This document shows, piece after piece, positions 24,143-58,632 of a stretch of DNA of 64,000 bases (position 1 is its first letter; each line of letters begins with the position of its first letter). The notes below the pieces were generated by a model, which worked only from the letters and a program-made list of their open reading frames with translations, had not been told where the DNA came from and did no database searches. This DNA comes from Streptomyces bathyalis. GTDB taxonomy: Bacteria > Actinomycetota > Actinomycetes > Streptomycetales > Streptomycetaceae. The position numbers and the translations under genes were made by a program. The DNA is taken from assembly GCF_015910445.1 (NCBI RefSeq), contig NZ_CP048882.1, positions 4,278,001 to 4,342,000 of the forward strand, given 5' to 3'.

Positions 24143-24433
24143 ATGAGGATGATGCTCAGAGCCCTCATGGACACCGAGAAGTCGAACAAGGCGATTGAGA
24201 ACGGCCAGATGCAGAAGATGATGGACGCGCTCACGGACCAGCTCAAACCGGAAGCGGCGTACTACAGCCCGCACGCCGGCAAGCGCTCCTGCATCATGAT
24301 CTTCGACATGAAGGAGAGCTCTCAGCTGCCGCCCATCGTCGAGATGCTGTTCCAGACGATGGGTGCGGAGGTCGAGATCCAGCCCGTGATGAACCGTGAG
24401 GAGCTGCACAAGGGCCTGGCGGCAATCGCCTGA
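24143..24433 (+). CDS. Small conserved-looking protein of unknown function
   Basis: A 96-residue soluble protein starting at ATG 24143, 8 bp after AAGGAG. It is Met-rich (M-R-M-M-L-R-A-L-M-D at the start; N-G-Q-M-Q-K-M-M-D-A-L) and forms an alpha/beta pattern with a central strand S-C-I-M-I-F-D-M-K and a later I-V-E-M-L-F-Q-T-M-G-A-E-V-E-I. This resembles a dimeric alpha-beta barrel (ferredoxin-like) fold as in DUF3303-type proteins, which is a guess from pattern. No catalytic residue is obvious. It stands alone, followed by a tandem repeat and a strong terminator. Confidence 0.75.
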   Translation: MRMMLRALMDTEKSNKAIENGQMQKMMDALTDQLKPEAAYYSPHAGKRSCIMIFDMKESSQLPPIVEMLFQTMGAEVEIQPVMNREELHKGLAAIA

Positions 24434-24438
24434 GCGGA

Positions 24439-24471
24439 CTCCAGGCACGAACTGCCTCCAGGCACGAACTG
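24439..24471. repeat. Tandem 16-bp direct repeat after a stop codon
   Basis: CTCCAGGCACGAACTG occurs at 24439-24454 and again at 24456-24471, starting 5 bp after the stop of the small gene. The second copy runs into the terminator stem. It is one of several short tandem duplications at gene ends in this window. Confidence 0.8.
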
Positions 24472-24506
24472 AGGGCCCTGCCTCGTCGAACCGGGCAGGG
24501 CCCTCA
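24470..24506. terminator. Bidirectional terminator between convergent small genes
   Basis: TGAGGGCCCTGC (24470-24481) pairs perfectly with GCAGGGCCCTCA (24495-24506) around a 13-base loop. It lies between the plus-strand small gene and the minus-strand Cys-rich gene and can serve both. Confidence 0.85.
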
Positions 24507-24520
24507 GCGGCAGTACCCCG

Positions 24521-24670
24521 TCAGCCGCAGCAACCGCCGCACTGACACGGGCCGCCGGACTGGCATCCGCACCCGCATCCCGGGCCGCACCCGCACGCCC
24601 CCAGTACGTGCAGGGACGGCCTCTCCTCCGACCGCGCGGGGGACAGGGCCGGATCGTTGTGATCAGCCAT
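24521..24670 (-). CDS. 49-residue cysteine-rich peptide, possible metal-binding (metallothionein-like)
   Basis: A short gene with an unusually strong ribosome-binding site: GGAGAAGGAGGGAACTC directly precedes the ATG at 24668-24670. The N-terminal half (about 24 residues) is ordinary and polar. The C-terminal half packs nine cysteines into about 24 residues separated mostly by glycine (C-G-C-G-P-G-C-G-C-G-C, then P-C-Q-C-G-G-C-C-G). There is no signal peptide. Such spacing suits cluster-type binding of Zn, Cu or another thiophilic metal, or iron-sulfur storage; this is inferred from composition. It lies between phoU and a convergent small gene, separated from both by terminator or spacer. Confidence 0.75.
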   Translation of the reverse strand: MADHNDPALSPARSEERPSLHVLGACGCGPGCGCGCQSGGPCQCGGCCG

Positions 24671-24793
24671 GAGTTCCCTCCTTCTCCTCCCCGGTCCACT
24701 CCCACCCTCCGGCCCGCCCCCACGGGCGCGCAAAGAGCGCGTAGGTGCACGAAAAGGCCGGGCGTGCCCCCGACGCCGTGCGGCCGCAGGCGC

Positions 24794-25495
24794 TCAGGAG
24801 CTCTCGACCGGTGCGGTGCCGTCGCCGGCCGCCGCGGCCGCCGGGTCCAGCTCGTCCGCGTAGTCGCCGGTGACCAGATAGACGACGCGACGGGCCACGG
24901 AGACCGCGTGGTCCGCGAAGCGCTCGTAGTAGCGCCCGAGCAGCGTCACGTCGACAGCCGTCTCGATGCCGTGGTGCCAGCGGTCGTCCATCAGGTGCTG
25001 GAAGAGCGTGCGGTGCAGGTCGTCCATCGCGTCGTCGTCCTGCTCCAGCTGCATCGCCAGATCGACGTCCTTGGTGATGATCACCTCTGCGGCCTTCGCC
25101 ATCAGCCGCTGCGCCAGCTGCCCCATCTCCAGCAGCGTCGCCTGCAGATCACTCGGTACGGCCGAGTTGGGGAAACGCAGCCGCGCCACCTTCGCGACGT
25201 GCTGCGCCAGGTCGCCGGAGCGCTCCAGATCGGCGCTCATCCGCAGCGAGGTGACGACTATCCGCAGATCGGTCGCGACGGGCTGCTGGCGCGCGAGCAG
25301 CTGGATGGCTCGGCTCTCCAGATCGCGCTGGATGTCGTCGACCTTCTCGTCCGCGGCGATGACGCTCTCGGCCAGCTTCAGGTCCGCGTCCAGCATCGCC
25401 GTCGTGGCGCGGCCGATCGCAGAGCCGACGAACCGGGCCATGTCGACCAGGCTGTCGCTGATCGAGTCCAGCTCCTCGTGGTACGCGTCACGCAT
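24794..25495 (-). CDS. phoU: PhoU, phosphate transport/signalling regulator
   Basis: A 233-residue all-helical protein with the two PhoU three-helix repeats: M-R-D-A-Y-H-E-E-L-D-S-I-S at the start, A-I-Q-L-L-A-R-Q-Q-P-V-A-T-D-L-R and D-L-E-R-S-G-D-L-A-Q-H-V-A-K in the first repeat, and Y-Y-E-R-F-A-D-H-A-V-S-V-A-R-R-V in the second. The acidic metal-binding motifs E-X3-D are present. PhoU restrains PhoR signalling and Pst transport when phosphate is plentiful. The gene is divergent from phoR-phoP across 201 bp containing an inferred PHO box oriented toward phoU. The C-terminal tail is Ala/Asp-rich. Confidence 0.95.
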   Translation of the reverse strand: MRDAYHEELDSISDSLVDMARFVGSAIGRATTAMLDADLKLAESVIAADEKVDDIQRDLESRAIQLLARQQPVATDLRIVVTSLRMSADLERSGDLAQHVAKVARLRFPNSAVPSDLQATLLEMGQLAQRLMAKAAEVIITKDVDLAMQLEQDDDAMDDLHRTLFQHLMDDRWHHGIETAVDVTLLGRYYERFADHAVSVARRVVYLVTGDYADELDPAAAAAGDGTAPVESS

Positions 25496-25591: not shown

Positions 25592-25624
25592 CCCGGATGA
25601 ATCGACCGCGACCTCAAGGTGAAC
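25592..25624 (-). promoter_or_regulatory. Inferred PHO box (PhoP-binding direct repeats) upstream of phoU
   Basis: Read on the minus strand, three contiguous 11-bp units occur: GTTCACCTTGA, GGTCGCGGTCG and ATTCATCCGGG. The first matches the Streptomyces PHO-box unit (GTTCACC plus 4) exactly in its heptamer, and the third in 5 of 7 positions. They lie about 100-130 bp upstream of phoU and about 75 bp before phoR. The location matches the known PhoP-controlled phoU/phoRP intergenic region of Streptomyces. Confidence 0.65.
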
Positions 25625-56475: not shown

Positions 56476-58632
56476 TTACAAGGGCTGCCTCCGGTCGTTG
56501 TCCGACTTCTGCTTCTTCTCCGTCAGGTCGTAGAGGGTGGTCCGGCCGGACTTCTCCTTGGCGAAGTGCTTCTCGACCCAGTCAGAGATCTCGGTGGAGT
56601 TGCCCTGCCGGCCGCCCGGACCGCCCGGACCGCCGCTGATGAAGTAGTGGATCTCGCCTGCTTCCACGTACTTCTTGAACTGGGCCAGTGTGGGAGCCGG
56701 GTCGGTGCCGTTGAAGCCTCCGATGGACATCACCGGCTGTTCGGCGGCCAGTTGGTAACTCGCACCGTTCATCGCGCCGATGGTGGCGGCCACCCAGGTG
56801 TAGTCGGCGGCGTCCTCGGTGAGCTTCGCCTTGGTGGCCCTGCCGACCTGCTGCCCGTCGAGCAGTCCGCCCATGCCGCCCCGGGGCATCCGCTCCGGGT
56901 TCCTGCCATCGAGGGTCCGGCCGGGCAGGCCGTCGTCCGGCTTGCCACCCTGCCCGGGACGGCCGGATCCGCCGACGGCACCGGGCGGGAACTGCTCGAT
57001 GGGGCCTGCCTGTTGGCCTCCGCCGGCCGCCGGACCGGGGAAGCTCCCGCGACCCTCCCCGCCCCCCGGCCCGGCGACGCGGGCTCCGCCGGGTCCGCCG
57101 AGGCGTGCCGACGCGGGCCCGGCCGTCACGATGGCTCCGGAGTGCGGGGTGTGGACGGTGCTCAGCGTGTACGCCAGGGGCCCTGCAAGCGACGCCGCCA
57201 GGCCCAGCCCGGCGATGACTGCCACGACGGTCTTCCCCGCGACCCGCTTCGGCAGCACCGCCGTTGCCAGGATGCCGAGCGCGGCTGCCGTTCCCCCGGC
57301 GAGGACCGCCCACTTGAGCCACGGCAGCCAGTCAGCAGCCCGGTCGAGCAGGACGTACGACCACGCAGCTGTCACTGCCACCGCGCCTGCCAGTGTCACG
57401 GTGGCGGCACGCCGCGCACGGCTCTGCCACAGCATGACCGTCCCGATGGCCACGACTGCGGCGACGTACGGGGCGAGCGCAACGGTGTAGTACTCGTGGA
57501 AGATCCCCGACATCAGGCTGAAGACCGCAACGGTCATCAGGAGCGAGCCGCCCCATGCCAGAAGTGCCGCACGCCGCATGTCGGTTCGTGCGGCCCGGCG
57601 AGTCAGCACCAGCCCCGCGACGAGGAGGAGAAGGGCCGCGGGCAGCAGCCAGGAGATCTGCCCCCCGACCGTCTGGTTGAACATCCGTCCGACGCCGCTC
57701 TCGCCGAACATGCCGCCGCCCGGACCACCACCCGGACCGCCGGATCCTCCGCCGCGTCCCGCCCCCGGCCCGACGCTTCCGACCTCGTTGCCGGTGATAC
57801 GGCCCAACCCGTTGTAGCCGAGAGTCAGTTCGAGAAAGCTGTTGTTCTGCGAGCCCCCCACGTACGGGCGGGAGCCTGCCGGCCACAGCTCGACGAGGGC
57901 GACCCACCAGCCGCAGCTCGCCAGCATCGCCAGCCCGGCGAGCAGCAGCCGCCCGGCGCGGCGCGGCAGCGACGGCTGTGCGCAGACCAGATAGACCAGG
58001 GCCAGCGGCGGAACGATCAGCCAGGCCTGAAGTGTCTTGACGAGAAATCCCAGTCCCAGAGCGGCGCCGCACAGGAGCAGCCACCTCATGCGGGTGTCCT
58101 CGACGGCACGCAGCAGGCAGTACACCGCGCACACCGACAGCAAACACAGCAGGGCGTCCGGGTTGTTGAACCGGAACATCAGCGCCGCGACGGGTGTCAG
58201 TGCCGTCAGTCCGCCCGTCAGCAGGCCCGCCGCCGGCCCGAACCAGCGCCGTACGGACGCGTGGAGGACGGCGACGGTGGCGACGCCTGCCAGCGCTTGC
58301 GGTACCAGGATCTGCCAGGTGCCCAGCCCGAACAGCCGCACGGACAGCGCCATCGGCCACAGTGCGGCGGGCGGCTTGTCGACCGTGATCACGTTGCCGG
58401 AGTCGAGCGAGCCGAAGAGGAACGCCTTCCAGCTCTCGCTGCCCGCCTGGGCGGCCGCGGAGTAAAAGGAGTTGGCGTAGCCCGAGGCGCCCAGCCCGTA
58501 CAGGAAGAGGACCGCCGTGACGGCGAGCAGCGCCCAGTAGGCGGGTCGTTCCCATCGGGGACGTGCGGCGCGGGCGTTCGTTCGCGCGGCGAGGCGGGTG
58601 GTGGGGACGAGGGAGCGGGCGAGGCCGGTCAT
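56476..58632 (-). CDS. GT39-family membrane glycosyltransferase (YkcB-like)
   Basis: A 718-residue polytopic membrane protein. The N-terminal half has the ArnT/PMT-like fold with the YkcB signature L-G-A-S-G-Y-A-N-S-F-Y-S-A-A and a first-loop acidic site around D-K-P-P-A-A-L-W-P. About 10-12 hydrophobic helices follow. A Gly-rich loop lies near 295-325, and a long outside Gly/Pro-rich linker (about 520-600) leads to a C-terminal domain (G-G-F-N-G-T-D-P-A-P-T). It should transfer a sugar from a polyprenyl-phosphate carrier to an envelope acceptor. Its ATG overlaps the stop of the GT2-GtrA gene (ATGA), which likely makes that donor. Confidence 0.88.
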   Translation of the reverse strand: MTGLARSLVPTTRLAARTNARAARPRWERPAYWALLAVTAVLFLYGLGASGYANSFYSAAAQAGSESWKAFLFGSLDSGNVITVDKPPAALWPMALSVRLFGLGTWQILVPQALAGVATVAVLHASVRRWFGPAAGLLTGGLTALTPVAALMFRFNNPDALLCLLSVCAVYCLLRAVEDTRMRWLLLCGAALGLGFLVKTLQAWLIVPPLALVYLVCAQPSLPRRAGRLLLAGLAMLASCGWWVALVELWPAGSRPYVGGSQNNSFLELTLGYNGLGRITGNEVGSVGPGAGRGGGSGGPGGGPGGGMFGESGVGRMFNQTVGGQISWLLPAALLLLVAGLVLTRRAARTDMRRAALLAWGGSLLMTVAVFSLMSGIFHEYYTVALAPYVAAVVAIGTVMLWQSRARRAATVTLAGAVAVTAAWSYVLLDRAADWLPWLKWAVLAGGTAAALGILATAVLPKRVAGKTVVAVIAGLGLAASLAGPLAYTLSTVHTPHSGAIVTAGPASARLGGPGGARVAGPGGGEGRGSFPGPAAGGGQQAGPIEQFPPGAVGGSGRPGQGGKPDDGLPGRTLDGRNPERMPRGGMGGLLDGQQVGRATKAKLTEDAADYTWVAATIGAMNGASYQLAAEQPVMSIGGFNGTDPAPTLAQFKKYVEAGEIHYFISGGPGGPGGRQGNSTEISDWVEKHFAKEKSGRTTLYDLTEKKQKSDNDRRQPL

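Follow-up and report, generated by a model that had tools for sequence, protein, structure and literature searches.

The window analysed here is a 64,000-nucleotide stretch of Streptomyces bathyalis DNA (contig NZ_CP048882.1, positions 4,278,001 to 4,342,000) that contains mtpA, an orthologue of SCO4227, at positions 24521..24670 on the reverse strand (-). Its product, MtpA, is a 49-residue metallothionein-like peptide (MADHNDPALSPARSEERPSLHVLGACGCGPGCGCGCQSGGPCQCGGCCG). The open reading frame (ORF) begins with the ATG at 24670 and ends with TGA, and the ORF, the ATG and the Shine–Dalgarno (SD) site are all kept in relatives. As read from the sequence, the SD site (GGAGAAGGAGGG; 24676..24687, -) lies 5 nt upstream of the ATG. 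With the anti-SD sequence it forms a duplex calculated at -13.7 kcal/mol, a value surpassed by one of the 35 long window genes compared, placing mtpA second of 36. All nine cysteines fall within residues 26–48, a 23-residue Cys-rich domain (CGCGPGCGCGCQSGGPCQCGGCC; 24527..24595, -). A preliminary description of this DNA had pointed to a nine-cysteine, 49-residue frame with a very strong ribosome-binding site, and both observations are upheld. A longer, 70-residue ORF starting at TTG was ruled out as the gene; relatives begin at the same ATG behind the SD site. The density of nine cysteines in 24 residues compares with a maximum of five to seven in 30 windows simulated with the local composition. 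Cysteine density alone is no proof of a gene, because a second stretch near 58178 (-) (CSGSTTRTPCCVCCRCARCTACCV), which is probably an antisense frame rather than a gene, also reaches nine cysteines in 24 codons.

The gene lies immediately downstream of phoU (24794..25495, -; TIGR02135, E=2.4e-56; PF01895), is co-directional with it and is divergent from phoR–phoP. This is the arrangement described for mtpA of S. coelicolor and S. lividans (SCO4227), for which expression under low phosphate is reported. Among the mtpA copies whose stretch includes phoU, 96 of 97 have phoU upstream on the same strand, and a survey of 110 copies also contains some orthologues located away from phoU. Past the mtpA stop is a perfect 13-bp inverted repeat (TGAGGGCCCTGCC...GGCAGGGCCCTCA; 24470..24506), read from the sequence, that is probably a bidirectional terminator. 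The unit is bounded by a convergent gene for a 96-residue DUF3303-like protein (24143..24433, +; PF11746, E=0.024, below the cut-off). This particular neighbour accompanies mtpA in no other locus examined, and the gene downstream of mtpA is convergent in the window and in most relatives examined. The convergent gene and the inverted repeat together indicate that mtpA is the last gene of the phoU unit rather than a leader ORF for something downstream. An Rfam scan around mtpA returned no match.

Synteny and the family alignment identify the window gene as mtpA (SCO4227), the known phoU-linked metallothionein gene of Streptomyces. The gene itself has been named, and studied for its transcription, since 2006, and its promoter element, described below, is alone in being possibly new. 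The original transcription study is reportedly that of Ghorbel et al. (2006, J Bacteriol 188:677), which later papers cite. In S. coelicolor, SCO4227 carries the entry ‘Metallothionein protein (mtpA)’ next to phoU (SCO4228) (PMC2267785), so the earlier suggestion that such a short gene would be missed by automated annotation was wrong. In strain WAC07094, mtpA likewise lies immediately downstream of phoU and divergent from phoRP, and it is transcribed chiefly from its own promoter, with a contribution from phoU read-through (PMC11019849). Expression of mtpA rises under low phosphate, independently of PhoP (PMC3282765). The link with phosphate that the preliminary description had proposed from the position of the gene is therefore a published one. 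The window copy differs from that of most relatives in having nine cysteines, not seven or eight, and in the decay of its own promoter element.

The mtpA ORF is a real gene under strong purifying selection. A protein search gave a match in 199 of 199 Streptomyces genomes examined, the weakest of which are not significant alone, and a profile built from 22 orthologues matches 134 of 137 members of the genus when the sample is widened. In a set of 98 distinct core DNA sequences, codon position three varies far more than the other two, and an omega-like ratio, taken as nonsynonymous over synonymous single-base codon differences, is about 0.04. Seven cysteines, several glycines and one glutamine are invariant in this set. 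Conservation in relatives, by which the preliminary description proposed to judge the peptide, is thus strong. Three Streptomyces have no mtpA after phoU (loci L120, L124 and L125; genomes G232, G322 and G177), and at L125 phoU is followed by a SCO4226-like nickel-responsive protein (PF14026) in place of mtpA. A search of 72,556 plasmid records returned no match.

The conserved cysteines are arranged as C-x-C-x3-C-x-C-x-C-x5-C-x-C, with up to two further cysteines. Counted from the core to the stop in 110 copies, there are seven cysteines in 41, eight in 50 and nine in 19. The 22-orthologue alignment and the 98 distinct cores show that the first seven cysteines of the window peptide are invariant and that its C-terminal pair is a lineage trait, which indicates that the functional core comprises seven cysteines, not nine. 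Many of the matches contain an in-frame TGA; selenocysteine at this codon was rejected, as those orthologues merely end after the seventh cysteine. Histidine and aromatic residues are absent from the Cys domain in all 110 copies, as expected for a flexible metal–thiolate cluster. The N-terminal 25 residues are free to vary, and some phoU-linked orthologues (among them L089, L090, L121 and L123) consist of the bare 27-residue core (MSGCQCGPGCSCGCQNGGSCQCGGSCS) preceded by its own SD site. The existence of these core-only forms implies that the N-terminal part is dispensable and speaks against a signal peptide, a membrane anchor or the leader of a ribosomally synthesized and post-translationally modified peptide (RiPP). 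An exported peptide was rejected on the same ground, in agreement with the absence of an export signal in the preliminary description.

By anatomy and by its name in the literature, MtpA is metallothionein-like. It has the general traits of these proteins: low molecular weight, abundant cysteine, C-x-C motifs and a Cys domain free of aromatic residues. Judged by its sequence, it is not of the SmtA/BmtA type, which is defined by PF02069 and histidine ligands; PF02069 matches none of the 22 members at E<=1. MtpA resembles SmtA, BmtA and PflQ2 in its small size, its approximately nine cysteines and the metal–thiolate cluster expected of it (Zn3Cys9His in PflQ2), but those proteins have histidine ligands and a zinc-finger fold, whereas the MtpA Cys domain lacks histidine. 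MymT, the Cu(I) metallothionein of Mycobacterium tuberculosis, is also a small, cytosolic, Cys-rich actinobacterial peptide, and it too was first found as an unannotated ORF. The gene neighbourhood of MymT is different, however, and the likeness is one of general description. A search of solved structures with the MtpA profile gave no match at E<=10.

Upstream of mtpA in most Streptomyces (for example at L006, L013 and L075) is an element, GCGCC-N-TTGATGCGCC (consensus GCGCC-N-TTGAYGCGCC), that overlaps the likely -35 region and is usually followed about 15 nt downstream by TGCAAT. The element is exact in 67 of 104 mtpA upstream regions and has no more than one mismatch in 84 of 104. It occurs in 14 of the 16 genomes that were searched whole, with one extra copy in one of them and otherwise as a single site, at mtpA. 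Looser matches elsewhere in the genomes are no commoner than those to a reversed-pattern control. At L124, where mtpA has been lost, a relic of the element with one mismatch remains after phoU. A literature search for the letters of the element found them in a relevant context in none of the papers covered. We tentatively propose that the 11-bp-spaced direct repeat TGCGCC-N-TTGA-TGCGCC, which hardly varies within the genus, may be the site of an undescribed regulator dedicated to mtpA, which would cause the PhoP-independent response to low phosphate (or to metal).

In the window, the corresponding position is occupied by what appears to be a decayed copy of the element (GCGCTCTTTGCGCGCC; 24725..24740, -), assigned by positional alignment with L075, L082 and L085; with four mismatches, it is alone at chance level. 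These three near relatives retain an intact element (GCGCCCTTGATGCGCC). The decay suggests that mtpA may here lean more on read-through from phoU. A weak hairpin resembling a terminator, located between phoU and mtpA (24757..24774, -) and detected by a consensus scan only, would fit partial read-through of this kind. Between phoU and phoR are PHO-box-like direct repeats (GTTCACCTTGA, GGTCGCGGTCG and ATTCATCCGGG; 25592..25624, -), and GTTCACC is kept there in most relatives.

The reading that we favour, and consider likely, is that MtpA is a phoU-linked cytosolic metal–thiolate buffer that holds Zn(II) in preference to Cu(I) and acts mainly in phosphate limitation. In this reading the N-terminal stretch of the peptide varies and can be dispensed with, and behind it comes a Cys domain of rigid spacing. 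The thiolates of this domain would most likely bind either two to three Zn(II) ions or several Cu(I) ions and thereby buffer metal and redox state. Transcripts would come from the mtpA promoter and from read-through of the PhoP-controlled phoU promoter, and with these two sources the level of MtpA would rise in phosphate limitation. Under these conditions there would be less phosphate and polyphosphate to bind metals, hence a need for the buffer. Metal binding, the preference for zinc and this physiological reason are inferred, as is the idea that a metal and thiol buffer is needed most when phosphate is short. The cytosolic thiol-rich metal buffer of the preliminary description survives as the best interpretation and agrees with how mtpA is seen in the literature; its further suggestions of sulfur storage and of binding a cluster, such as an Fe–S cluster, find no support here. 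Because nearly every Streptomyces retains a metallothionein gene next to phoU, a connection of phosphate starvation with metal buffering can be put to a direct test. The paralogue in a zinc context, described below, points to the metal, and the promoter element, with its single site, provides a handle on the regulator of mtpA.

Several points weigh against this reading. None of the Pfam or NCBIfam metallothionein models reaches its cut-off for the window protein, and the NCBIfam search gave no match to it. The nearest approach is by PF02067 (Metallothio_5), with a best E of 0.0097 in three of the 22 members, the window protein not among them, which probably reflects composition. As a few Streptomyces lack it, mtpA is not essential. 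In strain WAC07094, a magnesium effect was unchanged when mtpA was deleted together with phoU–phoRP (PMC11019849). Transcripts of the SCO4226–SCO4230 block in S. coelicolor fall under oxidative stress via SenS–SenR (PMC4991794), which weakens a simple role for MtpA in oxidative stress. Finally, nickel is a further possibility for MtpA, since SCO4226, which adjoins mtpA in S. coelicolor, is a nickel-binding protein (PMC4186839).

The metal may well be zinc. The best hint comes from S. mashuensis, which has both a phoU-linked mtpA (L089) and a second, unlinked mtpA-like gene of the short form (L073 2463-2566, +; MTVHTPGPTCSAGCTCGPGCSCGCQSGGPCQCGG). The neighbours of this paralogue are an ABC-3 metal permease (ZnuB), a Fur/Zur-like regulator whose C-terminus carries CxxC (named from its sequence alone), a His-rich ORF, a CobW/COG0523 GTPase and an NRAMP transporter, which suggests a zinc homeostasis neighbourhood. 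Copper, the less likely metal, would make MtpA a Cu(I)-thionein that, like MymT, caps free cytosolic copper and does not buffer zinc. Dense C-x-C motifs and the lack of histidine and aromatic residues agree with such a role, and MymT, itself small, rich in cysteine and from an actinobacterium, sets a precedent for Cu(I) binding (PMC7558416). Three genomes of other actinobacteria in the class (family f79; L194, L195 and L197) encode homologues of the MtpA core next to genes for cytochrome bd oxidase, a context that could point to copper. Against copper, the one paralogue that clearly has metal genes as neighbours, at L073, lies in a zinc uptake context, and phoU–mtpA is not linked to copper genes.

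A role for MtpA as a redox scavenger or a scavenger of reactive oxygen species, or as a partner of PhoU in the sensing of oxidative stress, appears unlikely. A review does suggest that PhoU and MtpA act in oxidative stress (PMC7866108), but the SCO4226–SCO4230 response cited above runs the other way, and the orthologues located away from phoU mean that PhoU is not a required partner. It is very improbable that MtpA is a RiPP precursor, with an N-terminal leader and a C-terminal Cys core that is modified and exported. The variable N-terminus followed by a conserved core, with an L-x-V-L-G-A/C junction resembling a leader–core boundary, would suit a precursor, but the phoU-linked orthologues made of the core only, each behind its own SD site, would not, and the downstream neighbours vary and include no recognised modifying enzyme. 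The idea of a functionless, Cys-sensing leader peptide that attenuates a downstream gene draws on the many Cys codons, the short ORF and the strong SD site, but is scarcely credible given that the next gene is convergent in the window and most relatives, leaving no co-directional target, and that the Gly, Gln and Pro residues between the cysteines are conserved at the protein level (omega-like ratio 0.04).

A protein with the same Cys module is encoded in a Nitrospiraceae metagenome-assembled genome (L087 1553-2707, +). This 384-residue protein ends in about four tandem Cys modules (CGPGCGCGCQAGGPCSCG) and has a hydrophobic N-terminus, a probable signal peptide, so that it is probably a secreted, multi-module version.
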